From contig PMSQ01000115.1 in the NCBI GenBank assembly GCA_003168355.1, forward strand, positions 1 through 64,000: a stretch of 64,000 nucleotides of DNA, read 5' to 3'. A model generated the notes under the pieces. It saw nothing but the letters and a program-made list of their open reading frames with translations. It searched no databases and was not told the DNA's origin. Source of the stretch: Acidobacteriaceae bacterium (lineage in GTDB: Bacteria > Acidobacteriota > Terriglobia > Terriglobales > Acidobacteriaceae). Every line of letters begins with the position of its first letter. Within the stretch, counting starts at the first letter, position 1. Shown piece by piece: positions 1,510-48,752 of this stretch. The position numbers and the translations under genes were made by a program.

Positions 1510-1959
1510 ATGCGCACCAGCCCAACCCTAATCGCCATGGAGCCACCCGCAGAAGCTGCGGATAGTAGCGTGGAAGAAGTCATTCGCACCCTGACGGGAT
1601 TGATCGAAGCGGTAAGCCGCGGAAGAACCGCCAACGAATCTTCCGGAAATCCCGCTGAAGAAGTGCTGGTTGATACAGAAGTGGATGGCTCCCGTTATCT
1701 TCTGTTGCGTATGCGACGGCTGGGCAGCAGTCGTGTTCAACTGAGCCCGCGAGAGCAGGAGATTGTCCGAATGGTAGCCAAGGGACACCCTAACAAAGTG
1801 ATCGCGGATGTACTGAACATCAGCTCATGGACCGTGTGTACCCATCTGCGGCGCATATTTGCCAAGTTGGGTGTGGGATCGCGGGCGGCCATGGTGGCTC
1901 AACTCCTGGAGTTGGGAGTTCTCGCGTCGGACCATCGCATCGCACCAGTTCCGCGGTAA
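1510..1959 (+). CDS. LuxR/GerE-type transcriptional regulator without a receiver domain
   Basis: This 149-residue protein has a classical LuxR-type helix-turn-helix at residues 78-135. It begins LSPREQEIVRMVAKGHPNK and has the typical ..TV-x-THLRRIFAKLGV-x-SRA recognition-helix region, so it should bind DNA as a dimer. The first 75 residues are acidic and lack the Asp phosphorylation pocket of a response-regulator receiver. The input signal is therefore unknown, or comes from a partner protein. The ATG follows a good ribosome binding site (ggagg, 6-7 bp upstream). A 15-bp tandem array lies upstream, and a MITE-like element begins just after the stop codon. Confidence 0.85.
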   Translation: MRTSPTLIAMEPPAEAADSSVEEVIRTLTGLIEAVSRGRTANESSGNPAEEVLVDTEVDGSRYLLLRMRRLGSSRVQLSPREQEIVRMVAKGHPNKVIADVLNISSWTVCTHLRRIFAKLGVGSRAAMVAQLLELGVLASDHRIAPVPR

Positions 1960-3034: not shown

Positions 3035-4437
3035 TCAGTTTGCCCTTGCATCCGCTTTGCGCCCGGCAACTTCGCGGCCAATGCCAGGTACCAAATGCTG
3101 GTTGCAATCGCGTTGTAGAAATTGGGTAGGTGAAATTTCTCGTTGGGGGCGTGAATATTGTCATCCGGCAGGCCAAAACCCATAAGAACCACGGGAACTC
3201 CGAGCTTTTCCTGAAAAGTGGTAACCACGGGGATCGAACCACCCGAACGCAGGAAGACAGGCGGCGAGCCGAAGCCCTTCTTGTAGGCGAATGCTGCCGC
3301 GCGAACGGCGGGGTGGTTACGGTTAACCAGAGCCGGTTTGATGGCCGAGAATGTGCGCACTGAGGAACGCACGGCCGGCGGAGTAATGCGTGCAATGTGG
3401 TCGCGAAACAGCTGCGCCACTTTTTCCGGATGTTGGTCCGGGACTAAACGAAAACTAAGTTTGGCAATGGCACGCGCAGGAATGATGCTCTTGGCGCCAC
3501 GGCCATGATGCCCTCCTGCCATGCCGTTCAGAGTCAGCGCCGGCCGAATCGTTGTACGCTCGTAGAGACTGAAGCCCGATTCTCCCCATCCCCGCTCCAC
3601 CTTGGCATCCTGCAGAATCTGTTCGTCGGTGGGTCCCGTGCCCGCCATGAAAGCGCGCTCTTTTTCGCCCCAGCGCCGCACATCATCGTAAAAGCCCGGA
3701 ATGGCCACACGTCCGTGAGCATCGTGCAGGCCGGCAATCATCTCGCACAGAGCCTGCAGAGGATTGTGAACCGCACCGCCGAAATTACCGGAATGCAACT
3801 CATGCGGAGGACCTTTTACTTCCAGTTCCGCTCGCAAACCGCCCCTCTGCGCGTAACTGATTGCCGGGCGATCTGGAGCGAGCATGCGAGTATCGGAGAT
3901 AACTGCCGCATCAGCCCGCAGCGCGCGCTTGTTCCGTTCGATGAACGCCGTTAAATGCGGGCTACCGATCTCCTCTTCGCCTTCGAAGATGCACTTCACA
4001 TTAACCGGCAGAGCCCGGCTGCTCTTCAAATAGGACTCCATCGCCTTCACGTGGGAAAAAAGTTGCCCTTTATCGTCAGCCGCGCCGCGAGCGTAAAGAT
4101 CATCGTTCTTAAGCGTCGGAGTGAAGGGCGGCGTATGCCATTCGCGTAGCGGCTCTCCCGGTAGAACGTCATAGTGGCCATAGATAATGAGAGTGGGACG
4201 GCCGGGGGCGCGCAACCACGACGCGTACACGATGGGATTGCCGCGAGTAGGGACCACGCGAACTCGATCGAGGCCAATACGCTGCAGATGCCGGGCCAGC
4301 CACTGAGCGCAACGATTCAGATCCGCGGCACGTCTCGGATCTGAACTCACCGAAGGGAAACGAATGAATTCCTTGAGTTCCGCCACAAATTGCCGACGGT
4401 TCGCGTGAGCGTAGCGGAGAGGTCGAAGGGCAGTCAT
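3019..4437 (-). CDS. M20 family dipeptidase / metallopeptidase
   Basis: This 472-residue zinc peptidase is of the carnosinase/CNDP type within family M20. Visible active-site elements are GHYDV (His88, Asp90), RGAADDKG (bridging Asp near 121), EGEEEIGSP (general-base and ligand Glu near 154-155) and the dimerisation-domain signature GRGAKSIIP. It is predicted to hydrolyse dipeptides or acylated amino acids in the cytoplasm. An in-frame extension to 4593 would overlap the previous gene and has no family character. I therefore use the ATG at 4437, nine bases after the upstream stop. It forms an operon with the amidohydrolase downstream. Confidence 0.9.
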   Translation of the reverse strand: MTALRPLRYAHANRRQFVAELKEFIRFPSVSSDPRRAADLNRCAQWLARHLQRIGLDRVRVVPTRGNPIVYASWLRAPGRPTLIIYGHYDVLPGEPLREWHTPPFTPTLKNDDLYARGAADDKGQLFSHVKAMESYLKSSRALPVNVKCIFEGEEEIGSPHLTAFIERNKRALRADAAVISDTRMLAPDRPAISYAQRGGLRAELEVKGPPHELHSGNFGGAVHNPLQALCEMIAGLHDAHGRVAIPGFYDDVRRWGEKERAFMAGTGPTDEQILQDAKVERGWGESGFSLYERTTIRPALTLNGMAGGHHGRGAKSIIPARAIAKLSFRLVPDQHPEKVAQLFRDHIARITPPAVRSSVRTFSAIKPALVNRNHPAVRAAAFAYKKGFGSPPVFLRSGGSIPVVTTFQEKLGVPVVLMGFGLPDDNIHAPNEKFHLPNFYNAIATSIWYLALAAKLPGAKRMQGQTEWQSS

Positions 4438-4445: not shown

Positions 4446-5891
4446 CTACGTCCAGCGCGGTTGTACCTGGTCCGCAAGCATCCACTTGCCGACCTCGTCC
4501 AACAATGCCCGACGAATCCGAACCGCTATCGTCGGTTTTTCCCGAGTGGCAATCCCAACCATGTTCAAGGCATCTTTTGCGCCAGGTAACCATGCGGGAC
4601 TGCCACTGTGGCCATGTTCGACCTTCATCTCAGTTTGGATCAGCTCGGGCGTGAGGTTCGTGACTTGCCCGTTCATGGCAAATTGAACGCGCCCCTTCGT
4701 GGCGTCAGTGCACCTCGGCCGATTCCAGGTGGCCGGCGGGCATTCCCCGGGGTATCCAGAGCAGCGAAGCACGGCGGTTTGGAGCTGAGGATCGGCTAAT
4801 GGTGAGATCTTGTTGCCGAGAGTGGACCAAAAACCGTAATTCGAGGGCAAACACTGTTTCAGGTCGGTGGGCAAGCATTTTTTCAGCGTGATCAGTCCAT
4901 AGTCGAAGCCGTTGTTGGTGGCGTTTGAGCTTTTCCAGGTGGCGCTGACTCTCAGGTTGATTGGCGTGAATCGGCCCACGGGCTCGATGTCTCCGTCGCG
5001 CGCCGGAATCACGATCACAGACCTGGCCAGAAGTGGAGGTTTAATAACACTCTCCCCAGTACGGGGGTTGAGTGTGGGATCTTCTTGTGTCACCAGGCAG
5101 TGCGCGGCGGTCAGGATGTGGCGTGGACTTATGAGAACACCGGTGCCGGTTGCGGCCTGGGGTGTGAGTGCACCATGGCTCAATACCAGCCCGAAGTCGA
5201 TGAGAAGCGAGCATATCCACTTGTGTGGAACTCGCTGAGAATCCATTACGGGAGCGGGATCCGGCAGCCTCAACAATTCGTATTCCGCCTCGGCTCGCCT
5301 CCCCGCATCAGGCAAGGCGCCGCGCGTTCTCCACTCGTAGCCGCCGCCGGGACGCGGCACCAGAACCGGGTAGCTGGCGGTAATGCGGGTGGAGAGAGCA
5401 ACCTCAACTCTTCGATTGAGGGCACGCTCTGCCTCGGAGCGCGGGTTCGTAGCAGCTAGACGGCGAGCGCCTGCGCCTCGAGCTTGCCACACGATCCGGG
5501 AGGAGATGTCCCGCTTGTTGATTAGCTGCCGAAGTGCGTGCTGGAGCGACAAAGCGCGTCGAGTGCTGATTTCGTCTTCGAATGCCCGGCCTCTCTGTGC
5601 ATCTCGGTCTGCGTGTCCCACCAATTCGACTTGCACCACCGGGGAACAGCCCGCTTTATAACTCCCGACGATCAGCCCTGCGGTCTGTTCCACCTTGCGC
5701 CGTTCCCTGGCCGGCAACGATGCAACGTCCTCCCGATAGCGAGAGAATCCGTTGACCGTGATCCGACCCGGGCCGGGACATACCTGACCGCCAGCGCCAC
5801 CCTCCCGTTCAGCCTCGAGTGCAAGATCCGTGCCTGAGAGACTCGCGATCAAGTGTTCAATTTCGTTTTCGAACTCGAGTTCGAGATTCAT
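4446..5891 (-). CDS. ELE-tagged OmpA-like / trypsin-like serine protease fusion
   Basis: This is a 481-residue fusion. Residues 1-30 form an acidic alternating leader (LELEFENE..) like that of the neighbouring genes. Residues 45-168 resemble an OmpA/MotB-type peptidoglycan-binding fold (VELVGHAD.., ..RALSLQHAL.., SEAERALNRRVEV). Residues 225-470 are a chymotrypsin-fold protease with His264 (TAAHC), Asp330 (FDYGLITL) and Ser429 (GHSGSP). All three catalytic residues are present, and at least six Cys could form disulfides. No Sec signal peptide precedes the leader, which is odd for a disulfide-bearing protease. The ATG follows GAGGAGAG. This is the last gene of the tagged cluster. Confidence 0.85.
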   Translation of the reverse strand: MNLELEFENEIEHLIASLSGTDLALEAEREGGAGGQVCPGPGRITVNGFSRYREDVASLPARERRKVEQTAGLIVGSYKAGCSPVVQVELVGHADRDAQRGRAFEDEISTRRALSLQHALRQLINKRDISSRIVWQARGAGARRLAATNPRSEAERALNRRVEVALSTRITASYPVLVPRPGGGYEWRTRGALPDAGRRAEAEYELLRLPDPAPVMDSQRVPHKWICSLLIDFGLVLSHGALTPQAATGTGVLISPRHILTAAHCLVTQEDPTLNPRTGESVIKPPLLARSVIVIPARDGDIEPVGRFTPINLRVSATWKSSNATNNGFDYGLITLKKCLPTDLKQCLPSNYGFWSTLGNKISPLADPQLQTAVLRCSGYPGECPPATWNRPRCTDATKGRVQFAMNGQVTNLTPELIQTEMKVEHGHSGSPAWLPGAKDALNMVGIATREKPTIAVRIRRALLDEVGKWMLADQVQPRWT

Positions 5892-5958
5892 TCACTCTCC
5901 TCGGTGCTTGTTCTCCCTGTCGCCTGATCGCGTCGAGTTCGAGGTCTTCGGCTCCTGA

Positions 5959-6576
5959 TCAAAGAGTCGGGCAAGAAGAATCGGCAAAGAGCAATTGGCC
6001 GGACGCTACGCAGTGGTAACCGAAGACGCATACCCCGCCGCTTTGGCCCGAAACGGTCACGGTTCTTGTGGCGGCCGAAAGCTGAACCGAGAGGGCTATC
6101 GATCCGTCTCCGGTATTCACCGAAACATTGCAGACCCAGTTCGGCGGCGGGGCAGTGCAGGAAATGCGCTGGACTGTGAATGACGACTGCCAGATTCGTC
6201 TCAAGTAGTGTTCGGCAGCGTGCTTGGAGAAGCTCTGCGGATCGCTCTCCCAACCCGTACAAGCAGCTTCCTTAAGCATGGGTCGAACAATTGCATCACG
6301 GGTTTGAACCCATTCCCTCCGGAAGGTCATGTCGGTAGGCTTTAGCTTTTTGCCGGTCCATTCTGGATGGCGATCATAAAAGACGGAGTCCGTGAGCCTG
6401 TTTTCATCGGTGACGCCGTGCGCGATTTGATCGCCAGCGACTGTTTCGTCGCGGCGACGCCGCGCTTTCGGGTCGATCGGAACCTCGCCTTCGACTTCCG
6501 ATTCGAGGTCGCTCCGATCGAGAAGGGCCATTAGACTTTCGAGTTCGGCTTCAAATTCGAGTTCCGCATCACGCAT
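5959..6576 (-). CDS. ELE-tagged hypothetical protein
   Basis: This encodes a 205-residue protein. The first 32 residues are the acidic tag (AELEFEAELESL.., DLESEVEGE). Then comes a helical stretch with DSVFYDRHPEW and FRREWVQTRDAIVRP. The last 80 residues form a Cys-containing, probably beta-rich module (six Cys, including ISCTAPPP and CVFGYHC). I recognise no enzyme motif. The ATG follows GAGGAG. It sits between a metallopeptidase-like and a serine-protease gene of the same tagged cluster, so it may be a cell-wall or carbohydrate-targeted cargo protein; that is inference. Confidence 0.75.
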   Translation of the reverse strand: MRDAELEFEAELESLMALLDRSDLESEVEGEVPIDPKARRRRDETVAGDQIAHGVTDENRLTDSVFYDRHPEWTGKKLKPTDMTFRREWVQTRDAIVRPMLKEAACTGWESDPQSFSKHAAEHYLRRIWQSSFTVQRISCTAPPPNWVCNVSVNTGDGSIALSVQLSAATRTVTVSGQSGGVCVFGYHCVASGQLLFADSSCPTL

Positions 6577-6671
6577 AATTTTCGTCTCCTCAAAACGAAC
6601 TACTGGTCAGGCCATTTGTGTCCCAGCGCGAACCGGTCTATTCATGCCAGGTGAGGCGTCTCGGTCGGGTT

Positions 6672-7478
6672 TCATATTCGATTTCCGCAGGGAAGGCTGA
6701 GGCACCGCCGGACAGCAGAGGGATCTCCACCAAAGCCATTGACCCGCAAGGCAAAGGCCGCATAGCAATGGGCGTCAAATCTCCGCGGGGAGGCGTCGTC
6801 CCCCAGATCGAAAAGCAGGTGTAACGTTTCGTGGATGATGATTCCCGCTCGGCGGTCGACTTCAGGGAGTCCCGGGAAGCGCCGGTCCACAAGTTGCAGG
6901 CGCGGATCATCGAGTCCGCGCAAGGGATTCCCTCCTAGTTCGGCCGAGGTTCGAGCATCCCAGAATCTCGCGCAGAGAAAAATTGTGCGGCGGTCTAGCG
7001 CGGTCGTTGGAGGATCGACGCGCGCAAAATCGTCTGCGCAACAGACGTTTTTCGCGCAAACGCTTGCGGTGTCCCCACAGATGAACATGATTTCGCGCCC
7101 AGGGCCCAGTTCGTGCGCGACAGAGCGAAAACGATTGGCAACGCTGGCGCCCGAAGGCGCATTTCCGGCCCCCGAAACTGCAAAGGATGGACCGTGACAG
7201 AAGAAGGCTTGGAATAGGCGTGTGGTCTCTTGAGCGCTTTTGCTACCGGAATCGGCCATCGCTGCGTCGATCTTGTTCGCTGCCGCGTTGGCCAACCTGA
7301 TCGCTTCCAGAATCGCTTGATGTAAAACAGCGAAGCATCCCCTCTCCTTACAGCCGGTACAGCCTACGTCGCCCTCGCTCGTTTCGCTCTCCGACTCCAG
7401 ATCGCTCTCTAAAAGAACGCTCATCAATTCTTCGAGTTCGGCTTCCAGCTCAAGGTCGGAGTTATACATGTCATACAT
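6672..7478 (-). CDS. ELE-tagged metallopeptidase-like protein (HExxH, M35-like)
   Basis: This 268-residue protein opens with the acidic tag (residues 8-36, LELEAELEELM.., DLESESE). A Cys-rich patch (CTGCKERGC) follows. Zinc-site residues HETLH (His216, Glu217, His220) are followed 14 residues later by FDAHCYAAFA. That arrangement resembles the aspzincin/M35 pattern N-A-[DE]-x-Y-A, but here His237 occupies the usual acidic position. Eleven or more Cys suggest disulfides, hence an oxidising destination, yet there is no signal peptide. The RBS AAGAGGCGAG precedes the ATG. The protein is predicted to cleave protein substrates outside the cytoplasm. The family assignment is moderate. Confidence 0.75.
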   Translation of the reverse strand: MYDMYNSDLELEAELEELMSVLLESDLESESETSEGDVGCTGCKERGCFAVLHQAILEAIRLANAAANKIDAAMADSGSKSAQETTRLFQAFFCHGPSFAVSGAGNAPSGASVANRFRSVAHELGPGREIMFICGDTASVCAKNVCCADDFARVDPPTTALDRRTIFLCARFWDARTSAELGGNPLRGLDDPRLQLVDRRFPGLPEVDRRAGIIIHETLHLLFDLGDDASPRRFDAHCYAAFALRVNGFGGDPSAVRRCLSLPCGNRI

Positions 7479-7511
7479 GGACTCGCCTCTTCGGGGAACT
7501 TCGGATTGGAA

Positions 7512-8870
7512 TCACCTCCGAAACTGCTTCTTGTATTCGTCGAGATCATGTGCGATGACGGTGCGCGCGGTGGTGTCGAGAATGTGGCCATGCGTCCCGC
7601 ACAGGACGTGATTCGCAGGCCCTGGCACCTTCCCGGGCACAGACTCGCAATCGAGTGCCATGGGCTGCGGCAGGGTGGCGCTCGCCCAATCCAACCTCTG
7701 CTGTGCCTGCCGCAAGACAAGGACTGAGTGTTTAGCTATTTCGTACGCTTGGCTGACGACCTGATCGGGGGTGGGATACTTCTGAGCCGTTCCTTGAAGC
7801 GCATCTTTAAAGAACGATGCTAGATAAACGTTCCAAAGGTTGTTGTCCTTCGAGCCGGTACCGCCGGGGCAGGAGATGGCGCTGAGTTTCTTATGAAGGG
7901 GCATAGCTTTCTCGGCGATGTCCGCTGCCATCTGTTCGGCCACCGGGGGCAGGTACTGACCGGAGGTTCCTTGCAGGGCAGTCTCATAGAACTCTTTGAG
8001 GTTTTGCTGAGCGGTGTTCGCTAAGAACGCCGCGGTCGGGTCTTGATCGAGGTGTGGAAGCGACTCGGCGGGATGAACAAATATCACCTCTACGCGCCGG
8101 TTACAGGCGCGTTCGGCTTCCGTTCGTGGGGTGGGAACGGCCAAAACCCTGGCGCCACGACCTGACGCAAGCACGCCACCGGCTCCCACGCGGCAGGCCA
8201 AATCGAGAGCCACCGCTGCGGCACGCTTTTCACTCATGAATTGCAGAAAGCCCGGTTCGCGTTTTTCACGAGCGGCGTCCATGTCGTCGTGTCCCACGAC
8301 GATCACTTGGCCGACCGAAATGACTCCCGGAGTACCGGACCGGCTCCGTGTGATTTCAGCGGCGATCGCGGCTAGCTTGTTCCGCTGGTCCGGCGGGAGT
8401 AACCCGAGATCGTCGCTGTATCGGCTGAACCCTCTAATCACGTACGGGCTGTCCGCCGGGCAGCTGTCTACAAATCCTTCCACTTCATACAGGGTGTCGT
8501 CTTCATCTCGTACGACTCGCCGCGGCGCCGGCATCCCGCTCAACTTAATTAGGGCCGCGCGCGTTCTAGGCCCGAGTGTGCCGGTCGGCCGCAGGCCTCG
8601 TTCCGCCTGGAATTTCTGCAGAGCTCTTCTGGTTTGGATGGAAGGAACGCCGTTCTCCGCGATGCCGAATCGCGTGACCCGATTTAAGGCTTTCTGCAGC
8701 CATCGGATCTGATCATTACCTTTAGTAGACCGCTGACGACTCCTCAAAGCGGGCGCCAAGGTCTCCGCTTCCATCTCCTCTTCTTGTTCCAGGAGACGGT
8801 CGAAGTAGGAGGGTTCGGCAAGCCGCCGGTCCAACCTCTGCCACGCCGTGCCTTCGGAGGTCATAGCCAT
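7512..8870 (-). CDS. Peptidoglycan-binding domain plus OmpA-like domain protein
   Basis: This 452-residue protein has an acidic tag-like segment at 20-40 (FDRLLEQEEEMEAE). A PG_binding_1 domain follows at 50-112 (IRWLQKALN.., GVPSIQTRRALQKFQAE, LGPRTRAAL). An OmpA-like domain lies at about 145-268 (GFSRYSDDLGLLP, VVGHDDMDAAREKR, EAERACNRRVEV), homologous to that of the protease at 4446. The C-terminal 180 residues are helical and unrecognised. It is expected to attach to peptidoglycan. No signal peptide or clear RBS is visible; the ATG at 8870 is the first good start. Confidence 0.8.
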   Translation of the reverse strand: MAMTSEGTAWQRLDRRLAEPSYFDRLLEQEEEMEAETLAPALRSRQRSTKGNDQIRWLQKALNRVTRFGIAENGVPSIQTRRALQKFQAERGLRPTGTLGPRTRAALIKLSGMPAPRRVVRDEDDTLYEVEGFVDSCPADSPYVIRGFSRYSDDLGLLPPDQRNKLAAIAAEITRSRSGTPGVISVGQVIVVGHDDMDAAREKREPGFLQFMSEKRAAAVALDLACRVGAGGVLASGRGARVLAVPTPRTEAERACNRRVEVIFVHPAESLPHLDQDPTAAFLANTAQQNLKEFYETALQGTSGQYLPPVAEQMAADIAEKAMPLHKKLSAISCPGGTGSKDNNLWNVYLASFFKDALQGTAQKYPTPDQVVSQAYEIAKHSVLVLRQAQQRLDWASATLPQPMALDCESVPGKVPGPANHVLCGTHGHILDTTARTVIAHDLDEYKKQFRR

Positions 8871-9089
8871 ATCGCGATATACTCGCTACCAATTGAGCTT
8901 GATCCTGGCAGCGTAGACCCATGTTTTCAATCAACTTTCCCGAATGGAATAGCTCACCCGGAAATTCGATTCCTTTGCGGCGGAATGGAAAAGAACACTA
9001 AGAGGCGCTCTCTCCCGTCGGGTTGGGCCTGTCTCTTGGGACAGAAACGGGCGAAACTCGCCCGCTGCGCCGCAAGCCATTTCATTTCT

Positions 9090-9332
9090 TCAGTACAGAA
9101 GTTCATCTTCCAGCGCAAGCTCTTCGTCCATCCAAAGCACGATGATGGGAGTATCGAGCGCAAACCAATCCCCGCTACGCCTCAGCGCGTTGTAGTCGGC
9201 TCGACGTTGTCGATCATTGAAGGCGCCTTTGTACCCAGAGGAACCGCTGCCACCACCGGCAGAGCCTTTACCGGAGGAAGCACTACTCACGGACTTGGTC
9301 GGAAACGGTCCTTCATGTATTGGGATAGCCAA
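9090..9332 (-). CDS. Small protein with C-terminal acidic tag
   Basis: This possible 80-residue protein starts at TTG, with GAGGCGG upstream. It has a Ser/Gly-rich stretch (residues 15-34) and then a compact segment with YKGAFNDRQRRADYN. It ends in DEELALEDELLY, the same acidic-hydrophobic alternation as the tags of its neighbours but at the C-terminus. It fills most of an otherwise empty 570-bp gap in the tagged cluster. The non-ATG start and short length keep confidence low. Confidence 0.4.
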   Translation of the reverse strand: MAIPIHEGPFPTKSVSSASSGKGSAGGGSGSSGYKGAFNDRQRRADYNALRRSGDWFALDTPIIVLWMDEELALEDELLY

Positions 9333-9438
9333 GTGCCGCCTCGCTTTCTAGATTTATCGGGCAGATGCACGCGAATGAGCCGCCTCGCCGCCGTCTCAGC
9401 GCGAGCCCTGCGGCTCGCGCTGCAACGGGGCGTCCTGG

Positions 9439-10611
9439 TTAGACTTCAAACTCGAACTCTCGTGCCGGCTTTCGCTGCGGAGAAACTCCCGCTTTCTGCC
9501 GGCCGTTTGGCCGCACTGGCGTCGGTTGAGTCTGGTCCCAGGGCAACACGCGATGCGATCCGGTTCGCTTGCTGAGGCCCATGGCCTGCGCGCTGGTCAG
9601 CCATTCTTCTGACTGCTCGGCAATTTCGAGCAACAGCGTTTCGAATTGTGCCCTCGTCGTCTGCAGGATGTGCGGTTGCGCCAGCCAGCGTATAACCTCG
9701 CGTCCGGTAACTCCCATGCGCTGCCGTGGCGACGTGACCAGGCGCTCGTTGTAGTAACGAATCAATATTTCTTCCACCACGTCCCAGGCATTGTCGGCGC
9801 CGAACAAGCGCTTCACATCGTCAGAGTCGAGGATCTTGAACGCCTCTTCGAGCAGTTGCATCACTTCCACCCGCAGCACGTTCAGATGGCCGAACGACAA
9901 CCACTTGAGGTTATTGCGCAGGTCCAGACCCGCGCGCCGCACGATGGCGATCGAGCCGAAGCTCGGATCATAGGCACGCTCGCGAATCACATCTGAAATT
10001 CGCTTGTCGCGCCAGAACAAAGTGACCTGGTGAACGAAGTGAGAAAACAGTTTGTGAAAGTCGGTATTCGCGCGGGCGCCCGTCGGGACCGGCGCGCCAC
10101 CGTATCCAAAGATTCGCTTGTAGGCCGACAGTCGATCGCGTTTGGTGTAACGAAGCACGTCCCGTCGATCAAACTGATAGAGAGCGAAGGCGCCCGGTCC
10201 ACCGGAGAGCCGCACCGTGCCCGCCTTGAACAGTTCCTGCAGCTTTTGGACCGCACGGAACACGCCGATTTTCTCATGCTGCCAGAGGTAGTACATATCT
10301 CCAACCGCGACGATGCGTTCCGACGTGATGGTCTCGTCGTACGGCTCTACGCCCGCCGGCATGCGGGTCGTGCCGAATTCCCTGGAGGCCTCGGGACCAA
10401 TCCCTATCAGGGACGCGAGGCCTTTATCTGGAGGTGGTGGAACCTTCGAGTCCGAGTCCACAACCGAGGCCAGCATGTCATCGATCTGCTTGGTGAGCGC
10501 GTCGGCGAGCTGCGGATTCGAGATCAGATCAGCTGATAGGCGGCTCGCTACCTGCTCCCGCAGTGCCGCTACGCGGTCATATAAACCTTGATAATCTTTT
10601 GACGTAGACAT
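9439..10611 (-). CDS. Hypothetical protein with C-terminal EFEFEV tag
   Basis: This encodes a 390-residue protein of no family I recognise. It is largely alpha-helical, with an N-terminal coiled-coil-like part (residues 1-50), a central region containing VGDMYYLWQHEK and FGYGGAPVPTG, and a helical C-terminal half. The tail is basic and proline-rich, and the last six residues are the acidic tag EFEFEV. There is no signal peptide or membrane segment. A strong GAGGAGGG precedes the ATG. It follows the Ig-domain gene in the leftward cluster, and the two may act together as structural rather than catalytic components; this is inference. Confidence 0.75.
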   Translation of the reverse strand: MSTSKDYQGLYDRVAALREQVASRLSADLISNPQLADALTKQIDDMLASVVDSDSKVPPPPDKGLASLIGIGPEASREFGTTRMPAGVEPYDETITSERIVAVGDMYYLWQHEKIGVFRAVQKLQELFKAGTVRLSGGPGAFALYQFDRRDVLRYTKRDRLSAYKRIFGYGGAPVPTGARANTDFHKLFSHFVHQVTLFWRDKRISDVIRERAYDPSFGSIAIVRRAGLDLRNNLKWLSFGHLNVLRVEVMQLLEEAFKILDSDDVKRLFGADNAWDVVEEILIRYYNERLVTSPRQRMGVTGREVIRWLAQPHILQTTRAQFETLLLEIAEQSEEWLTSAQAMGLSKRTGSHRVLPWDQTQPTPVRPNGRQKAGVSPQRKPAREFEFEV

Positions 10612-10695
10612 TGATGACCCTCCTCGTTCAGAGCGCTCCTCACCGGATGTGCGCCTCTACTACGGCACTGCCAAACCTCGTACACGCTAGATGGT

Positions 10696-12471
10696 TTACG
10701 GTCTGCGTCTCCTGGATAGTTCCACTTCCAACTCCAGTGGCTCCGGAATCCGCATACCGACCTGCTGGCCCTGCGTGAATAGCTGCGTTAATTGGTCGTT
10801 AAGATCGTCCAGCGCGTGCCTCACGCGAGCCGTGCTGTAGCCGTCGGGTAGCGCATCCAGGTTCTGGGGATCGTGCGCTGCCTGCACCATATTCATCAGC
10901 GTTTGCACCACGGGTAGCAGGTTGTTTGTGATGGCAATCCGGCCACCGCCTCTAATAAGACGTGGCAGTTCGTCAGTGGCCGAGCTTTCAATTTCCGTCA
11001 GCACGTCCTCTAGATACATGGCCGGCAGCTCCCACTGGTCGTCGAACTCGAGCAGCAACGTCTGGCGCTCATTGGGCCCGATGAACACAGAATCGAGCGC
11101 GAAGCGCAATTCGTTGACCGTCTCGGCAATTACACCCAGCTGCCGCGAGATCAGAACCAGCTGCGTTCCCAGGAAAGCTGGCAGACGCGACGTGCTCAAC
11201 AGGAAGTACTTGCCATTGGCCAGCCAGCTTTGCAGCAGGCCAGTCATGTAGTCGGAAATCATCCGGAAATTGGTGATATCCGTTTCGTCCTGCACGGAAT
11301 TGTTGAACTCATTGTCTCTGCCGTTCTGCAGGAAGTAGATGCCGTAAGTGTCGCGGAGCGAGCCCAGCGTACCTCTGATCCTGTCTGGATCAACTTCGAC
11401 CCGGGGATCGTCATTGAAGCGAAAACGCTCCGCTCCCATCAGAATCCTGAAATAAGTGTTCACTCTCAGGATTGACGGTGGAACTATGCCGAATTGATTG
11501 ACGATCTCAGCGATCTGGCTCTTCGCCATATCTCGCAAGGCCTTCACGAACTCGGAATCGGCCGTGGGATCGAGCGGATACAAACTGTCCAGCAAAGGCA
11601 AGCAATTGTCCTGCGCAACTTTCGCCCGAGCGTAAAGGCTGGCCTGCGCACCTGAAATTACCCCCGCCAGGTCCGATTGCACGGTGTACGTGCGTTGATT
11701 CCACTTCGACTCTACGTGGCCTTCGACTTCCGAAAGGCTGAAGGACTGCGTCAGTGCTCCGACGAAACCTTTTGCATCGGTCGAGTTCGGCTTCCATCCC
11801 AGCGCATCGCCGATCGCTCTCGCAGCAATCTGCCCCAGTCCCTGTCCCGCGCCACCTCCGGAAGTGAATCCCGCTCCCGGCCCTGGCCGGGATGTGACCG
11901 CAGGAGGATAGCCTACCTCCTGCGTAAGAATGGGATAGGAGATCGCATCCTCCACATCTTTGATCATTCGGGCGGTCTTTCCCCTTCCCTTTACTTGAAA
12001 GGCGAGGTTGACAAAGTCGCCTTCAAATGCCGGCGCAGGATCCCCGCTCTCCGGCTGCCCGTGGATGTGCTTGAGCACAATATTGACCCAATCGCCATCG
12101 AAGAACTCGTATCCCTTCGGATTCGGCGGCGTCGTGGTCGTAGGTGTAGTAAAGGTGATCAAGATAGTGGTGGGGGAAACAAAAGTGGCCACGGCGTTGG
12201 GAACCGTGCCTGCGGCGGCGGCGGCCAGCGTTACGAGGGTATGCGGCTGCTGGAAATCCGCCGAACCCGGATCGAAGATCGAATAGTTGGCCGGATTCAC
12301 AACGCTATTCTTGTTTGCCTGCGTAACCGGCAACCACGGCACCGTCGCGGCTGTCCCTGCCGTCAGCGCCGTCTGCGCCGCTTTAACCTGGCTCTTTGTG
12401 AATACCGGATCAGAGAACGAAATCGTGATCGAATTATTAGTTACGTTGATATCTGTCACTGTGAGAGGCAT
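10696..12471 (-). CDS. Large protein with SbsA-like Ig N-terminus and acidic C-terminal tag
   Basis: This encodes a 591-residue protein. Residues 1-130 look like a bacterial Ig-like/SbsA fold (VTDINVTNNSITISFSDP, ..TTILITF). A Gly-rich linker follows (GAGFTSGGGAGQGLGQ near 200), then a long helical region with no known motif. The end carries LELEVEL followed by a basic SRRRRP. I place the start at the ATG at 12471, after a strong GGAAGGAGA site; the frame extends upstream to 12549 without support. It lacks a signal peptide. Ig-like domains typically mediate surface or structural contacts, so a scaffold role is possible. Confidence 0.75.
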   Translation of the reverse strand: MPLTVTDINVTNNSITISFSDPVFTKSQVKAAQTALTAGTAATVPWLPVTQANKNSVVNPANYSIFDPGSADFQQPHTLVTLAAAAAGTVPNAVATFVSPTTILITFTTPTTTTPPNPKGYEFFDGDWVNIVLKHIHGQPESGDPAPAFEGDFVNLAFQVKGRGKTARMIKDVEDAISYPILTQEVGYPPAVTSRPGPGAGFTSGGGAGQGLGQIAARAIGDALGWKPNSTDAKGFVGALTQSFSLSEVEGHVESKWNQRTYTVQSDLAGVISGAQASLYARAKVAQDNCLPLLDSLYPLDPTADSEFVKALRDMAKSQIAEIVNQFGIVPPSILRVNTYFRILMGAERFRFNDDPRVEVDPDRIRGTLGSLRDTYGIYFLQNGRDNEFNNSVQDETDITNFRMISDYMTGLLQSWLANGKYFLLSTSRLPAFLGTQLVLISRQLGVIAETVNELRFALDSVFIGPNERQTLLLEFDDQWELPAMYLEDVLTEIESSATDELPRLIRGGGRIAITNNLLPVVQTLMNMVQAAHDPQNLDALPDGYSTARVRHALDDLNDQLTQLFTQGQQVGMRIPEPLELEVELSRRRRP

Positions 12472-12573
12472 GGTATGTCTCCTTCCGCCACGGTCATTCT
12501 CTGTTCCGGTCTGCGGTTGATGCGCGGCGCCGGTTGCCCGATACGCCAATTGGACGCCTAAAACGGCGGCTTT

Positions 12574-13134
12574 TCAAGTAACGCCCTCCGCTTCCAGATC
12601 CACAATGCTGGATCGAGGCAGCGAAATCTGCTGGCCCACGTTCGTCGCCTGCACCGAGATATTCATTGTTCCCAGCCGCTCCGCCAACTCCTGCCAGCAC
12701 GATGCCAGAGCGGTGCTGGTTTGTTCGAGCGGCTGGCGGCATTGCTCAATTCCCTGCTTTACCGCGCTGGCCCAGGGAAGCCAGGCTCGCCGCTCCGCGC
12801 CGAGCCTCGCCAACTCTCTCAGCATCTCGTACGACACCAGCTCCGACGCAAACTGCTGCTCGATGCGGTGAAAGCGCTCCTGGCAAAGCGCCAACTCGCG
12901 CCGTGCCCGGTCGAGATCTGGCGGATGCCCCACGGCCTTCCGCGCGTCCAGCGCCGCTCGCCTCGTCTCGTGCAATGTTCCCATCAAGTCGAGCACCGCG
13001 GTTTCCACTCCGTCCGCCAAAGCTAATTCGTCGTCGGACGGCTTGTCTCCCAGCGTGACCTGAACCTCATTCAGCGCGTCATGCAGGTGATGAAGGCAAA
13101 CCGACAGTTCGCGAAATGTCGCTTCCAGTGCCAC
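12574..13134 (-). CDS. Helical (coiled-coil) hypothetical protein
   Basis: This 186-residue protein starts with GTG, right after the upstream stop codon, and has GAGGAG for translation. Residues 1-150 are continuous amphipathic helix with charged heptads (LHHLHDALNEVQ, RARRELALCQERFHRIEQQ). The C-terminal 40 residues look like beta structure. They contain NISVQATNVGQQISLP and end in SIVDLEAEGVT, a weak version of the cluster's acidic tag. Tight spacing (2 bp) to the metallopeptidase-like gene suggests coupled translation and perhaps a chaperone or inhibitor partner. Its function is unknown. Confidence 0.7.
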   Translation of the reverse strand: MALEATFRELSVCLHHLHDALNEVQVTLGDKPSDDELALADGVETAVLDLMGTLHETRRAALDARKAVGHPPDLDRARRELALCQERFHRIEQQFASELVSYEMLRELARLGAERRAWLPWASAVKQGIEQCRQPLEQTSTALASCWQELAERLGTMNISVQATNVGQQISLPRSSIVDLEAEGVT

Positions 13135-13136
13135 GG

Positions 13137-14477
13137 CTATCTCCTCACCAGTTCCTTGTAAAAGTTCTCGGTAATCACTCCCGGCCGAGCCATGCGCCGG
13201 TCCAATGCAACCCGCGCCGCGCCGATCAGAAACCGCTCTGGGATGATTCCCGGATCAACTCCCGCAGCGATCCGCCGCGCCGACTCTTCAATCATCGCTT
13301 TATCTTTCTTCTCAAAGCGGATCACTTGCGACAAACTCTTGTTTCCCAGTGACCGAAAAGGCCGGAAACACATGGCGTCAACCGCCGCGGCGCAAGCCTT
13401 GGGAAAAGTCGCCAGCACCTTCTTCGGAATCGTCCCGCCCCGCGGATTGGGATAGATTCGAGTCCACGCCCGCGCATATTGTTCCGCTTCCTTCTCAAAG
13501 CCCATGCGGCGCAACATCTCTGCGCTGATCAACAGCCGCAGGTAGGGTGTGGGGTGCGGCCCCCTCGGGTTGAAGCTAAACACCGCGGCCGGCGCTCGCC
13601 CGATCACATCCATCAACGACCCAACCACCTCCGGTCCGCCCAGCAGAAGCGCGCTCATATCGGCGAACATCTCGCGGTTCCAGCGCACCCACACCGAGGA
13701 GACGAAACGCCCCAGGTCCGCCTCGAGCAACCGCATCCCAACCTGCCGCGGCACATCTTTGTTCAACCCCAGGTCGCTTTGCAAGTTGTGACTTACCTCG
13801 TGCATCACCGCGCCCAGTGTCCACGGATTCACCAGCCGGTGGTAGGGCAATTGCACCAGCGGAAAAGGATTCAGTTGCTTGCCCAGCCTCCGCATGCGAA
13901 TGCCCCGCCGAATCGTCGCCGGCGCGAATCCCGTCTTCATGTAGCAGAACGGTGGCGGCGCCGGCACCGACCTGGCCACACCCAGCCCCGTATAAGCGGC
14001 CTGGTAACAATCCATCGCGATCCGATCACAGCTCAACAGCCAATCTCCATATTTTCCCTGGCGCTGGCCGAAGAGCTCGAAATAGAAATCCCAGATCTTT
14101 TCGATTCCCTGCACCCAACGGTGGGCCTTGTCCTTGCGCGTCACTACGCTCTGCAACCGGGCCGAACTCGGCCGGTCGCTCGCTTTCGCAATTGCGCCGT
14201 GAACATTCTCCGACATCTTCAGTAGGCCGCGGCGCAACTTCGTAATCAGTTGGTTGACGACTTGTATGTGACCCTCCGAGGGCATCGCTGCTCCGGTCCC
14301 GAACTCCTCCCGCTTGAAGGGGCGGAGTGCGGCTGCGTGGCGCGTTACATTGATCGATTGCGCCCGCAACCAGGGCAACAATACGGGGGTCGGTCCAGCA
14401 ACGACTCTCGGTCGTTTGCGCGGAGGCCGACCCACCCGCATGGTTGTTTCCGGCAGCGTTTCGGACAGCGTCGCCAT
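13137..14477 (-). CDS. Gluzincin-like HExxH metallopeptidase-like protein
   Basis: This 446-residue protein has a zinc-peptidase signature: HEVSH (His226, Glu227, His230), followed 35-40 residues later by NREMFADMSALLLGGP. There Glu269 could be the third ligand, as in gluzincins. A further conserved-looking element, RGPHPTPYLR (around 306-314), resembles the HP-x-PYLR box of other HExxH families. The N-terminus is basic (KRPRVV). No signal peptide or membrane span is seen. It lies between the two polyacidic proteins and the coiled-coil protein. Either protease or peptidase-fold structural roles are possible, but the full ligand set favours an active enzyme. Confidence 0.75.
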   Translation of the reverse strand: MATLSETLPETTMRVGRPPRKRPRVVAGPTPVLLPWLRAQSINVTRHAAALRPFKREEFGTGAAMPSEGHIQVVNQLITKLRRGLLKMSENVHGAIAKASDRPSSARLQSVVTRKDKAHRWVQGIEKIWDFYFELFGQRQGKYGDWLLSCDRIAMDCYQAAYTGLGVARSVPAPPPFCYMKTGFAPATIRRGIRMRRLGKQLNPFPLVQLPYHRLVNPWTLGAVMHEVSHNLQSDLGLNKDVPRQVGMRLLEADLGRFVSSVWVRWNREMFADMSALLLGGPEVVGSLMDVIGRAPAAVFSFNPRGPHPTPYLRLLISAEMLRRMGFEKEAEQYARAWTRIYPNPRGGTIPKKVLATFPKACAAAVDAMCFRPFRSLGNKSLSQVIRFEKKDKAMIEESARRIAAGVDPGIIPERFLIGAARVALDRRMARPGVITENFYKELVRR

Positions 14478-14515
14478 CGTCTCTCACCTTAAGGAGCGTT
14501 TGTTGACTTGTTAGT

Positions 14516-15475
14516 TCATCGACCGCAGCACTGGCAGCAGCCACAAGACGGGCAACCGCCTCTTCCGCCCACAGCCCGTCCATGGTGTGCCGCACGGACA
14601 CCCACTCCCGGAGCGCCTACGCCATGCCCCCTTATGCCCACCCCAGGTCGAGATACGCCTCCGACGCCACGTCGTCCGACATACCTCGGAGCCGCCCCGG
14701 CATGGCCTCTCCAACCTCGCCCGGTGCGCCAACCATAGCGCCCGTGCGGATGGGCAATGCCGCGCCCCACGCCGCCTGCCATGCGCCCGTGGAACTTGCG
14801 TTCCAGAAAGTTATGGTGGCGAAGCGCGTGTGCCCGGTGACCTGGCGTGCCCAGCACCCGGCGTGCCTGTTTCGCCAGATGTCGCACCGCCGCGTGTGGC
14901 GTTACGTGCCCGCCTCGAGCCGCATGATGGGCGATCTTGCCAACCGTACGTCGAGCGATCGCCGGCACGGTCTTCAGCAGGTGACGGGTCTGTGGATTCC
15001 GATGAAGAGCCTTAGCGACCTTGACGATTCCCTTTGTCAGATTAGGTGTGGCTTTGGTCACCGCCCGGGCGATCTTGGGCAGGGCCCGCTTCGCCAAAGG
15101 CGCGACTGCCCTGGCCACGACCGGCAGCAGTTTGCTGGCGGCCATGCCGATAAGCGGCAGAAAGTGCTCCGCAGCCTCGTCTTCGCTCTCAGCTTCGGCC
15201 GCGAGCTCGCCCAGGTGCTCCATCACAGCGTCCGGATAGATCTTGCGGACGGGGCTGATCTCGTCTTCATATTCATCTTCGCCTTCGGATTCATCTTCGG
15301 CCTCGTACTCGTCTTCGCTTTCTCCGAGTAAACTGCCGGCGATGTTTCCGAGGGTGCCGAGCCAGCCTTCGCCTTCCAGGCCGGCCTCATCTTCCAGTTC
15401 GTCTTCCGTCTCGTCCTCAAGTTCTGCTTCGAACTCGTCTTCGAGTTCAGCTTCCAATTCACTTTCATACGCCAT
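14516..15475 (-). CDS. Acidic-leader / basic-tail protein with Cys-rich C-terminus
   Basis: This is a 319-residue polyampholyte. Residues 1-75 are almost entirely Glu/Asp with regular hydrophobics (ESELEAELEDEFEAELEDE). They are interrupted at 33-53 by a Gly/Leu segment (GEGWLGTLGNIAGSLLGE). Residues 105-215 are strongly basic helices, including TVPAIARRTVGK and AKQARRVLG, shared with the next gene upstream. The last 90 residues are Gly/His/Arg-rich and finish with CPSCGCCQCC, a possible metal-binding or disulfide cluster. The RBS AGGAGG precedes the ATG. I recognise no enzyme; the charge layout suggests self-association or polyanion binding. Confidence 0.8.
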   Translation of the reverse strand: MAYESELEAELEDEFEAELEDETEDELEDEAGLEGEGWLGTLGNIAGSLLGESEDEYEAEDESEGEDEYEDEISPVRKIYPDAVMEHLGELAAEAESEDEAAEHFLPLIGMAASKLLPVVARAVAPLAKRALPKIARAVTKATPNLTKGIVKVAKALHRNPQTRHLLKTVPAIARRTVGKIAHHAARGGHVTPHAAVRHLAKQARRVLGTPGHRAHALRHHNFLERKFHGRMAGGVGRGIAHPHGRYGWRTGRGWRGHAGAAPRYVGRRGVGGVSRPGVGIRGHGVGAPGVGVRAAHHGRAVGGRGGCPSCGCCQCCGR

Positions 15476-15534
15476 GATGAAGCCTCCTGCGAAAAGTGGT
15501 CGAACTTAGTGGGCCCGGCTGTGGGCCGGTATGA

Positions 15535-16533
15535 CTAGATCACGGAACTGCGACGGCGGCGCGCCGAGAAGCGGCGGCGCAGTCGGCGCGGACGCTTGTA
15601 GGCGCGGCTGATTTTCCTGTTGCGCCGAATCGCCATCGCGGCAGCCTTGGGATTTCCGAGCACACGACGGATCTGTCGCGCGGCGGTGCGTCCCGCGCTT
15701 CTGCGCGTGATGCGGTGTCCTTTGGCGGCTTGCCGCTTCAGGCTCTTGACGGTGCGGCGCATGATGGTCGGCACTGCCCGAACCCCTGCCCGGGTGCTGC
15801 GGCGGCGCCGAAGTATGCGCGTCAGAATGGCGGTGCCCCGCGTCAGATGCGGCAGGATGCGCCGTAGAGCTCTCCGGTCCTTGGGCGAGATCACGGTGGC
15901 TACGGCGGCCCCGGCCATGGCTTCCGCTTCGCCCTCGTTCGCCTCATTCGATGCGGCTTCCGCCATCATCTCGGCGACCGCCTCATTGTGCGTCAGCGGG
16001 TGAGTAGCAATCTCGTTGGCCGTTTCTGATTCTGCTTCGTCTTCGTATTCGTCCTCGAATTCCTCTTCATATTCCCCTTCGCCCAGGGCCCCGGCAGCCA
16101 TTGATCCCAGCTTGCCGCCCAGCGGACCGCCGATCGCAGTGCCCACAATAGGTGCAGCCACTTTGGCGACCTGCTTGAGAATGGGAAGGGCCTTCTTGAA
16201 GAAGCTTCCGAAGGAGAACTGTTCGGTTTCGTCCTCGAATTCGTCTTCGGCTTCGTACTCGTCTTCGCTTTCACCGAGCAGGCTACCGGCAACGTTGCCC
16301 AGGGCGCCGAGCCAGCCTTCGCCCTCTCCTTCGTCCTCAAACTCGCCTTCATCTTCGAATTCATCTTCGGCTTCGAGTTCGTCTTCGCTTTCGCCGAGCA
16401 GGCTGCCAGCAATGTTGCCCAGGGCGCCGAGCCAGCCTTCGCCCTCCAAGCCTGCCTCATCTTCGCCTTCGAGTTCGCCCTCGTGGAACTCGTCTTCGAG
16501 TTCCAGTTCCAGTTCGCTCTCTTGGTCCGCCAT
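15535..16533 (-). CDS. Acidic-leader / basic-tail protein with duplicated GWLG motif
   Basis: This 332-residue paralogue of the following gene is first in the tagged cluster. The acidic leader (ESELELELEDEF) is followed by two 40-residue repeats, each with GEGWLGALGN-[IV]-AGSLLGESEDE (33-52 and 73-92). A glycine-zipper-like hydrophobic segment follows (APIVGTAIGGPLGGKLGSM, 127-145). A second acidic block and an Arg/Lys-rich C-terminal 110 residues (PTIMRRTVKSL, AARQIRRVLGNP) complete it. A strong AAGGAGG lies upstream. The amphipathic glycine zipper could insert in or line membranes or assemblies. The function is unknown. Confidence 0.8.
   Translation of the reverse strand: MADQESELELELEDEFHEGELEGEDEAGLEGEGWLGALGNIAGSLLGESEDELEAEDEFEDEGEFEDEGEGEGWLGALGNVAGSLLGESEDEYEAEDEFEDETEQFSFGSFFKKALPILKQVAKVAAPIVGTAIGGPLGGKLGSMAAGALGEGEYEEEFEDEYEDEAESETANEIATHPLTHNEAVAEMMAEAASNEANEGEAEAMAGAAVATVISPKDRRALRRILPHLTRGTAILTRILRRRRSTRAGVRAVPTIMRRTVKSLKRQAAKGHRITRRSAGRTAARQIRRVLGNPKAAAMAIRRNRKISRAYKRPRRLRRRFSARRRRSSVI
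16276..16448. repeat. 120-bp direct repeat inside the polyacidic gene
   Basis: The stretch 16276-16328 recurs at 16396-16448 with a few substitutions, exactly 120 bp apart. It encodes the duplicated GWLGALGN/LLGESEDE module. A third related copy lies in the neighbouring gene near 15331-15383. In-frame duplication explains the length difference between the paralogues. Confidence 0.85.
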
Positions 16534-16839: not shown

Positions 16840-18234
16840 TCAGTTATGATGATAACCGCCCGCACTCTTACGCGTAAGCGACTCGGATGCAGGATGCTTA
16901 TCGAAATGCTTAACCGCGCGCTCCAGATCTTCAAACAACAGCCCCGCCAGATCCCGGCTCAGCCCCAGGCGAGATAGAACCCGTTGCACCACGAGGTCAC
17001 CCCGATTCGCCGGCATGGGATAAGCCGGAACCTGCCATCCTTTCACACGCAGGCGGTCTGCCAGATCGTACAGCGTGAAACCTGGATCTTCGCCCTTTCG
17101 AATCGTCCACGTACAGCCCGGAACCCCGCCGCGGCCGTCATACACCAGTTCGAACATATCCAGTTTCTTGATCTGATCCGCAAACCACGCCCCAACATCG
17201 GCGCAGCCTTTCGTAATTTTTGTGTAGCCTTCACGCCCCAGACGAACCAGGTTGTAATACTGCGACGCGATCTGTCCTCCGGGCCGCGAAAAGTTGAGAG
17301 CGAAGGTCGGCATGTTGCCTCCCAGATACTTCACCCGAAAAATCAAATCTTCCGGCAGATCCTCCGCCTCCCGCCAAATGGCCCAGCCACAGCCAAGCGG
17401 CGTCAGACCAAACTTGTGCCCCGACGTGTTGATTGATTTCACGCGCGAAATTCTAAAATCCCAAACTACCGAGGGATGGATAAACGGCGCAATAAACCCT
17501 CCACTCGCCGCATCCACATGGATCGGAATGTCGAGTCCATGTTCCTCTTCCAAATCATCGAGTGCAGTCGCCACCTCTTCCACTGGCTCATACTGCAGCG
17601 TATAAGTCACGCCCAGCGTCGGCACAACTCCAATCGTGTTTTCGTCGCAGCGCGCGATTACTTCCTTGGGCGACATCAACAGTCGCCGCCCCTCGCACGG
17701 AATCTGCCGGAGCTCCACATCAAAATATCGCGCAAACTTGTGCCAACAGATCTGTACCGGACCGCAAATCAAGTTAGGCTTGTCCGTCGGTTTGCCCGCC
17801 TGCTCGCGCTTCTTGCGCCACCTCCATTTCAGCGCCAGCCCGCCCAGCATGGCAGCTTCACTCGACCCGGTCGTCGAACAGCCCATGGCGTTTGCGGCAT
17901 TCGGCGAATTCCATAAATCCGCCATCATGTGCACGCAACGCGCCTCGAGTTCCGCCATCTGCGGATACTCGTCCTTATCGATCATGTTCTTGTCCAGGCA
18001 TTCGTCCATGAGTTTGCGGACTTCAGGCTCGACCCACGTCTGGCAAAAAGTGGCGACATTCTGCCGCGAGTTCCCGTCGAGCAGCAGTTCGTCGTGGACC
18101 AACTGGTAAGCGGCCGTGGGATCGGTCTCGTGTTTCGGCAGTTTGTACTTGGGCAAAGGATGAGGCAGGAAGCCCGTGCCAAACACCTCGTCATCAAGGC
18201 TGGAGAAAATCTCTTCTTTGCTGTGAATGGCCAT
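16840..18234 (-). CDS. gadB: Glutamate decarboxylase (PLP-dependent)
   Basis: This 464-residue enzyme, the same length as the Escherichia coli proteins, converts L-glutamate to GABA and CO2, consuming a proton. Visible features are [19 protein letters not shown], the PLP-contacting HVDAASGGF (Asp241) and the Schiff-base lysine in SGHKFG (Lys274). A C-terminal GGYHHN has His near the end, as in acid-gated GadA/GadB. It should be cytoplasmic and serve acid resistance or GABA metabolism. No glutamate/GABA antiporter gene is adjacent. Both flanks are gene-poor and hold REP-like palindromes, so it is probably transcribed alone. Confidence 0.97.
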
Positions 18235-19343: not shown

Positions 19344-19360
19344 GATTCATCCCGTCCGGT

Positions 19361-48636: not shown

Positions 48637-48752
48637 CCGAACCGTCACTCCCTCAGAGCTTCGCAAATCATCTTACGTGAAGTGGCAGGGGTTCCGTGAT
48701 CCGTGTTCCGTGATCGGCGCAAGGCTAGCGGTAGTGCGTTTGTTTGCGACCC

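Follow-up and report, generated by a model that had tools for sequence, protein, structure and literature searches.

What joins eleven adjacent bacterial genes for seemingly unrelated proteins that share one recurring peptide? The window considered here is a stretch of 64,000 nucleotides from an Acidobacteriaceae bacterium (assembly GCA_003168355.1, contig PMSQ01000115.1). It contains eleven consecutive open reading frames (ORFs), all leftward, at 16533-4446, here named g11 to g1 in that order. A model given only the nucleotide sequence and its ORFs (hereafter the original prediction) had pointed to short alternating acidic and hydrophobic segments at the ends of these proteins, and had proposed that this "tag" recruits cargo to a common carrier, compartment or non-Sec exporter. 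Our analysis suggests, with a probability of about 0.5, that the locus encodes a tag-and-scaffold enzyme assembly, in which two scaffold proteins, g10 and g11, would recruit exchangeable tagged enzymes, the cargo acting outside the producing cell. Recruitment of the tagged enzymes by the scaffolds is the most likely part of this reading, and the idea that the cargo is deployed extracellularly against other cells is more speculative. At the level of sequence, what is supported is a conserved gene order, shared tags, swapped cargo, the charge pattern of the scaffolds, an internal duplication and an occurrence in several phyla.

A tag confined to one locus

N-terminal acidic tags are present, as originally described, on the cargo proteins g1 (LELEFENEIEHLI), g2 (ELEFEAELESLM) and g3 (DLELEAELEELM) and on the scaffolds g10 (ESELEAELEDEFEAELEDE) and g11 (ESELELELEDEF). 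Two profiles bear on their specificity. The first, built only from the cargo tags of other strains with the window excluded, was searched against 456 window ORFs; it recovers g3 (E-value 5e-10) and g2 (3.3e-7), and no other ORF falls below E 2. It misses g1, which has a more divergent tag. The second profile includes the window tags, so that only the lack of carriers elsewhere counts as evidence; across 20 genomes and records its matches are confined to the locus (E 3e-9 or better; g1 5.5e-12), with all remaining matches above E 0.1. The search of other genomes that the original prediction had proposed as a check finds co-located carriers, in this locus only. An alternating acidic/hydrophobic 5-mer within the first 40 residues is likewise missing from all 32 other window genes and occurs once among 128 flanking ORFs. 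A looser DNA pattern, E-x-E-x-E-x-E, occurs at 14 sites in the genome, six of them within the cluster, and proves little on its own because its reversed control gives 17. Judged by these comparisons, the tags are genuine and specific to the locus.

At the C-termini, one of the claimed tags stands and two do not. A motif comparable to the EFEFEV ending of g6 is found in 18 of 24 g6 orthologues, as against 1 of 160 other genes (0/32 in the window and 1/128 among flanking ORFs). The LELEVEL ending of g7 is restricted to its closest relatives, with 2 of 22 orthologues passing the motif test, and the acidic tail of g5 (DEELALEDELLY) is not conserved: homologues of g5 are present in few loci only, and their tails differ. 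The protein g9 is untagged, and any acidic stretch in g4 or g8 is weak. The tag is thus not shared by all eleven genes, as had been claimed, but belongs to a subset, namely the cargo N-termini, the g6 C-terminus and both scaffolds. Tags missing from orthologues, or equally common in unrelated genes, would speak against the original prediction; the tags of the scaffolds, the cargo and g6 survive both comparisons, and those of g5 and g7 do not.

Within the cargo, the tag is better conserved than the protein that it precedes. Mean pairwise identity among six M35-like cargo proteins is 55% in the tag versus 33% in the body. Between g3 and one cargo protein of another locus (L034), 66 of 72 tag nucleotides are identical, the bodies being about 29% identical, and g2, whose body is unrelated to that of g3, has the same kind of tag. 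These observations are consistent with a module that is retained or swapped as the enzyme changes, and the tag in this respect appears to behave as an address module. Hydrophobic N-terminal segments are absent throughout (the maximal 19-residue Kyte-Doolittle score near the N-terminus is at most 0.68 in every case), which agrees with the earlier statement that Sec signal peptides are lacking.

Two putative scaffolds with oppositely charged ends

The common carrier that had been postulated is plausibly the pair g10 and g11, which would be polyvalent scaffolds for the tag; no link to a sheath, encapsulin or microcompartment and no non-Sec exporter was found to fill the other roles proposed for it. 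Acidic-hydrophobic-acidic motifs number 7-24 per g11 orthologue and 3-23 per intact g10 orthologue. Charge is polarized along both proteins: the net charge of g11 is -45 over residues 1-110 and +42 over residues 216-332, and the two halves of g10 carry -31 and +28. The acidic N-terminus of g11 contains amphipathic GWLGALGNIAGSLLGE units, and a 120-nucleotide internal tandem duplication of the acidic-hydrophobic unit at 16228-16470 (100/120 identical) suggests that scaffold valency changes by duplication. Both scaffolds also have a hydrophobic glycine-rich segment, and no stretch of either rises above a 19-residue hydropathy of 1.5. Alignment of g10 reveals a conserved (I/V)SP(I/V)RK(I/V)YPDA...EH domain. 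The g11 family is found in 18 loci and has no Pfam match; almost every other sampled genome of Acidobacteriota and Actinomycetota lacks g10. In one genome (G014), an orphan g11-like scaffold gene with GKLGG repeat units (L078:8731-10020) is distant from the operon and has no adjoining cargo.

Conserved core and exchangeable cargo

The ORFs run uninterrupted past g1 into genes for an M20-family dipeptidase and an amidohydrolase, so that the operon extends from 16533 to 2132; the eleven genes originally described are all present as ORFs, but the boundary set at 4446 was too short. Scans of Pfam, NCBIfam and PHROGs give no family above cut-off for g2, g5, g6, g7, g8, g10 and g11, and most core proteins are unmatched in these libraries and in PADLOC. 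A scan of a defence library returned a single weak match, of MotB/OmpA type. The best-conserved core protein, g6, is 65-96% identical across phyla. Orthologues of g7 and g8 are present in 22 and 21 loci, respectively. A fold search with g7 gave no match among PDB or viral models at E <= 0.001, and PDB sequence searches with g6 and with the g9 of both versions of the system (see below) gave chance matches or none. The protein g9 has an HExxH motif and no family match; H226, E227, H230, E269 and D273 are invariant in 19 orthologues, and it is predicted to be a zinc metallopeptidase.

Between g6 and the M20 gene lies a cargo slot of 0-4 proteins that differ by strain. In the window, the folds originally assigned to the bodies are borne out: trypsin in g1 (PF13365 and PF00089, both above cut-off), an M35-like HExxH protein in g3 (PF14521 at E 0.001, under the cut-off of that family), PG_binding_1 and OmpA-like domains, and an Ig-like part, located in g7. 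Homologues of g4 occur in two other loci (L032 and L045). None of the ORFs in this slot was recognised as an immunity gene; the small ORFs g5 and g2 are possible candidates.

Of the enzymes that follow the slot, the M20 dipeptidase (NF006053, 524.7 bits against a cut-off of 441) is a fixed member, found at the same position in 21 of 24 loci. The amidohydrolase is present in 18 loci, as well as in two divergent ones described below (L096 and Ensifer). It has the C-terminus ESEYHL, and the ending E-Y-x-L recurs in several orthologues (ESEYHL, EAEYKL, QPEYEL), possibly another instance of the tag. A LuxR-type regulator family is also present in 21/24 loci.

Distribution among soil bacteria

Six of 61 close relatives are positive for g6 by tblastn, and a complete Paraburkholderia megaplasmid carries the gene at 79% identity. 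A pattern scan of about 85,000 species genomes found 22 loci. Together with the window and the megaplasmid there are at least 24, in Acidobacteriota, Pseudomonadota, Actinomycetota and one Armatimonadota metagenome-assembled genome (MAG); with two short patterns in the scan, this number is a minimum. Among the carriers is the isolate Silvibacterium bohemicum S15, and an isolate that has cargo is Acidobacteriaceae ZG23-2. Wherever the contig extends far enough, the genes follow the order g11-g10-g9-g8-(x)-g7-g6-[cargo]-M20-amidohydrolase. The Saccharopolyspora loci keep the scaffold and g9-g6; the M20 and amidohydrolase genes were not seen there. No relative of g6 was found in viral contigs, and no scaffold domain in phage records.

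On this evidence the gene cluster is mobile and appears to have spread horizontally among soil bacteria of several phyla. The safer example of transfer is the Paraburkholderia megaplasmid, the placement of which is moderately supported (84/91). The Nevskia soli locus was also considered as proof of transfer and was set aside: it groups with a Bryobacteraceae MAG (99/98), but the assembly is bog-derived and may be mis-binned.

Divergent versions and distant relatives

In a distant Acidobacteriota genome (G333), reached by a search with M35 cargo, one locus (L096) contains a shorter scaffold, a g9 relative, an unrelated-looking protein of 550 residues and an amidohydrolase of the same family. 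Its cargo has PG_binding, VanY and M35-like parts and EFEFEWE-type tags. Matches to the L096 scaffold lie on megaplasmids of Ensifer, Rhizobium and Paraburkholderia phymatum. In all four divergent systems the scaffold, the g9 relative and a protein of 550-724 residues are encoded consecutively; the amidohydrolase is present in two of them, L096 and Ensifer only. Three of the four have PG_binding cargo with EFE-type tags and swapped C-terminal domains. PG_binding is joined to GIY-YIG in Ensifer and to DUF2272 and glucosaminidase in Rhizobium, and the tags of both lie near the N-terminus or behind the PG_binding domain. The g9 proteins of the two versions are homologous (profile match 99.2%, E 3.4e-19). 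The 550-724-residue protein was considered as a counterpart of g6 and rejected: a direct profile link fails (0.04% probability), and an indirect one via a Tolypothrix protein is weak (E 0.009) and is not claimed. Profile comparison shows no link between this protein and g7.

Distant relatives of g6 are found on plasmids of Tolypothrix (L030, 9495-20713) and Burkholderia pyrrocinia (L031, 5686-21426), and it is possible that these regions are a further branch of the same type of system. Both adjoin S8 peptidases and other unassigned proteins, together with a large amidase gene in Burkholderia or a peptidoglycan-binding gene in Tolypothrix. A third variant, in another Acidobacteriota genome (L104:6605-13880), has a 796-residue scaffold-like protein, a g9 relative and a protein with SPFLENELF / ESPFLSAFE-type repeats replacing EFE tags. 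On a Bradyrhizobium quebecense plasmid (L105, 6162-22689), a g9 relative lies among genes for an S8 peptidase, a patatin, two phospholipase-D-like proteins, two CHAT-domain proteins and a GMC oxidoreductase. In Rhizobium, the divergent scaffold genes have an ORF of 1537 residues upstream (L098:1257-5870), apparently a fusion of a GMC oxidoreductase and a patatin-like phospholipase.

A possible assembly mechanism

The tag-and-scaffold reading would work as follows. One end of each scaffold has many alternating acidic-hydrophobic units, the other is strongly basic and partly hydrophobic, and it is proposed that this combination allows scaffolds to bind each other and any protein that carries a unit. 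Cargo would join through its one N-terminal unit, and the C-terminal unit of g6 would couple the core (g9, g8 and g7) to the scaffold. Since the cargo slot is exchangeable, strains could load different enzymes: peptidases and peptidoglycan-binding proteins here, a nuclease and wall hydrolases in the divergent versions. A condensate or particle would form, and the cargo, once released, would act outside the producing cell, most probably on the walls of other cells. Extracellular action is suggested by the nature of the cargo, which consists of peptidoglycan-binding proteins, wall hydrolases, Cys-rich peptidases and a nuclease.

Several observations weigh against this reading. The cargo slot is empty in 15 of 24 loci, apart from a g5-like ORF, and actinobacterial g6 has no C-terminal tag. 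The M20 dipeptidase is of a cytosolic type, a poor fit to an extracellular weapon, and the analysis recognised neither an exporter nor a gene for lysis or immunity. The helical moment of the tag is unexceptional (the test was not significant), and only its alternating stretch is strand-like (P about 0.02-0.04). The structure model of g6 is poor (predicted local distance difference test, pLDDT, 44), and the AlphaFold model of g7 (pLDDT 67) is not confident over the whole protein.

Other explanations can be weighed on the same evidence. The tag could be a non-Sec export signal with no role in assembly, the cargo leaving through a glycine-zipper pore of g10/g11 or an unlinked machine. Its N-terminal position on Cys-rich cargo of typically extracellular kinds, the lack of signal peptides and the glycine-rich segment of the scaffolds would suit such a role. 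However, g6 has the motif at its C-terminus and the scaffolds have many copies of it, unlike known export signals, the hydropathy of g10/g11 is low throughout, and scans of Pfam, NCBIfam and PHROGs recognised no ATPase, pore or secretion family among the operon proteins; we regard a pure export signal as unlikely. Since no non-Sec exporter was found, sorting to an exporter looks the same in these data as assembly into a body that is kept inside the cell or released by lysis. A body kept inside might also serve intracellular proteolysis, in which the tagged peptidases, g9 and the dipeptidase degrade protein and glutamate decarboxylase uses the freed glutamate against acid stress. One operon with several peptidases and a dipeptidase, and without an export gene, agrees with that idea, as does an adjacent decarboxylase in 8 loci; but adjacency is limited to those 8 of 24, and cysteine-rich cargo and cargo with peptidoglycan-binding, OmpA, VanY, glucosaminidase and GIY-YIG domains does not fit, which makes this explanation quite improbable. 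The odds seem poorer still for an acidic propeptide, removed later, that keeps peptidases inactive or soluble and is conserved for inhibition. The tag is N-terminal on peptidases, and with no Lys and few Arg it would resist Lys-specific and largely also trypsin-like cleavage, but it is also borne by g2, in which no peptidase domain is recognisable, and by the C-terminus of g6, and the scaffolds bear its unit many times.

A further check proposed at the outset was whether tagged genes cluster with contractile-injection or encapsulin genes. The locus could be the source of cargo for a known particle, the structural genes of which are encoded at another place in the genome. The OmpA-type cargo does resemble the predicted toxins of Photorhabdus-type cassettes (PMC3482391), and some carriers have sheath or eCIS_core genes. 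Co-occurrence is inconsistent, however. The sheath gene (PF04984) is over cut-off in 5/20 carriers and absent from the operon and the window genome, the control being positive in three known genomes. No operon protein matches eCIS_core (PF13699), which occurs elsewhere in the genome in 9/21 carriers; the encapsulin shell Linocin_M18 (PF04454) is found, again elsewhere in the genome, in 7/20, and the microcompartment shell (PF00936) in 2/21 and not in the other 19. None of these genes is in the window genome (92% complete), and a known particle is very unlikely. Least probable is that the acidic segments are functionless low-complexity drift. Their strong composition bias and the unconserved tails of g5 and g7 would be expected from drift; recovery by the window-free profile, confinement to the locus, a tag more conserved than the body and a g6 terminus conserved after a variable linker would not, and for g2, g3, g6, g10 and g11 drift is already disfavoured.

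Comparison with known systems

Cellulosomes combine repeat-bearing scaffolds with a docking module on diverse hydrolases. The tag-and-scaffold arrangement proposed here resembles them in its scaffold repeats and in a docking module on varied enzymes; it differs in having no cohesin or dockerin domain (Pfam scans), no signal peptides, and peptidases instead of cellulases. Short terminal peptides also gather unrelated enzymes in microcompartments, where encapsulation peptides of the PduP type can drive condensates, and such peptides drive co-condensation of bacterial cargo (PMC12339742). In the present locus, by contrast, there is no shell gene, the tag is acidic and alternating, and the scaffolds are polyampholytes. 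In ionic-complementary self-assembling peptides of the FEFEFKFK type, alternating hydrophobic and charged residues form beta-sheets (PMC11669940, PMC7201262). Those peptides share the alternation and are designed; here the opposite charge would be provided by the basic ends of the scaffolds.

Polymorphic toxins, including those of Photorhabdus-type cassettes (extracellular contractile injection systems, eCIS), have a shared N-terminal delivery module and swapped C-terminal enzymes, and OmpA and peptidoglycan-binding domains occur in both (PMC3482391). A shared N-terminal module on differing C-terminal effector domains is indeed found here. Unlike those systems, the locus has no recognised secretion machine or immunity gene, with no component of a known secretion pathway in the operon (Pfam, NCBIfam, PHROGs) and no eCIS_core or sheath in the window genome. 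Conflict systems with effector-associated domains (EADs) use an adaptor module to recruit trypsin-like and other effectors to a core (PMC8195603). Their cores are largely centred on a nucleoside triphosphatase (NTPase), whereas here there is no NTPase domain and the adaptor is a short acidic peptide; no central NTPase with an EAD was found in the operon, and a match of g8 to EAD11 is not significant (E 0.21).

As the defining feature of encapsulation peptides, polymorphic toxins and EAD systems was lacking or could not be shown, the locus is classed as none of them. The suggestion that the system is categorically new rests on these comparisons and on the unmatched core. No description of the locus was found in the open-access literature; subscription papers and preprints were not covered. 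It is a tentative further step, and a doubtful one, to propose a new, horizontally spread effector-assembly class in which polyampholyte scaffolds gather exchangeable peptidases, wall hydrolases and nucleases by their tags and deploy them extracellularly without a contractile, capsid-like or ATP-driven machine. What the locus offers is a multi-gene bacterial system whose core genes are mostly unmatched in family libraries and whose short transferable tag seemingly gathers unrelated enzymes. Binding of the tag to the scaffolds, if real, would be a simple means of protein co-localisation and would connect many hypothetical genes in soil Acidobacteriota, rhizobia and Burkholderiales with a single testable machine. 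Should the cargo act on other cells, its delivery route would be one missing from present catalogues of secretion and toxins.

Gene order and genomic context

The features of the locus are collected in Table 1. The window genome (5.3 Mb) clusters with Acidobacteriota MAGs, some of them labelled Candidatus Sulfotelmatobacter. A scan of the locus for promoters and terminators gave matches below chance expectation.

Table 1. Genes of the proposed tag-and-scaffold locus and its immediate neighbours (window coordinates)
Feature	Position	Strand	Remarks
g11, putative scaffold 1	15535..16533	-	tag-rich acidic N-terminus, glycine-zipper-like segment, strongly basic C-terminus
g10, putative scaffold 2	14516..15475	-	acidic tag-rich N-terminus, conserved domain, basic Cys-rich tail
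g9, predicted zinc metallopeptidase, untagged core	13137..14477	-	HEVSH ... NREMFAD
g8, 186 residues, core, fold unassigned	12574..13134	-	no family above cut-off
g7, Ig-like N-terminal part and helical C-terminal core	10696..12549	-	start may be ATG near 12471
g6, best-conserved core protein	9439..10611	-	EFEFEV C-terminal tag behind variable linker
g5, accessory protein, 80 residues	9090..9332	-	acidic tail DEELALEDELLY
g4, cargo without clear tag	7512..8870	-	PG_binding_1 and OmpA-like domain
g3, tagged cargo	6672..7478	-	Cys-rich M35/deuterolysin-like zinc peptidase, HETLH
g2, tagged cargo, fold unassigned	5959..6576	-	tag profile match; no family above cut-off
g1, tagged cargo	4446..5891	-	OmpA-like domain and trypsin-like peptidase (AAHC, FDYG, GHSGSP)
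M20-family dipeptidase, fixed operon member	3019..4437	-	best start ~4437; NF006053
Amidohydrolase (PF04909)	2132..3034	-	gene overlaps M20 gene
LuxR/GerE-type regulator at operon end	1510..1959	+	GerE-type helix-turn-helix matches
Glutamate decarboxylase, optional upstream neighbour	16840..18234	-	TIGR01788, 629 bits

Upstream of the glutamate decarboxylase gene, at 18588-19900, is a pair of genes for an anti-sigma-like protein and an extracytoplasmic function (ECF) sigma factor; similar ECF-like ORFs are present in three other loci. At the other end, a short ORF adjoining the regulator has four perfect 15-nucleotide tandem copies (1239-1298), encoding SSDPY repeats. Much of the remaining window (about 29000-64000) is taken up by a large polysaccharide cluster with many glycosyltransferases, which includes two asparagine-synthase-like genes at 43739-45745 and 46711-48666.

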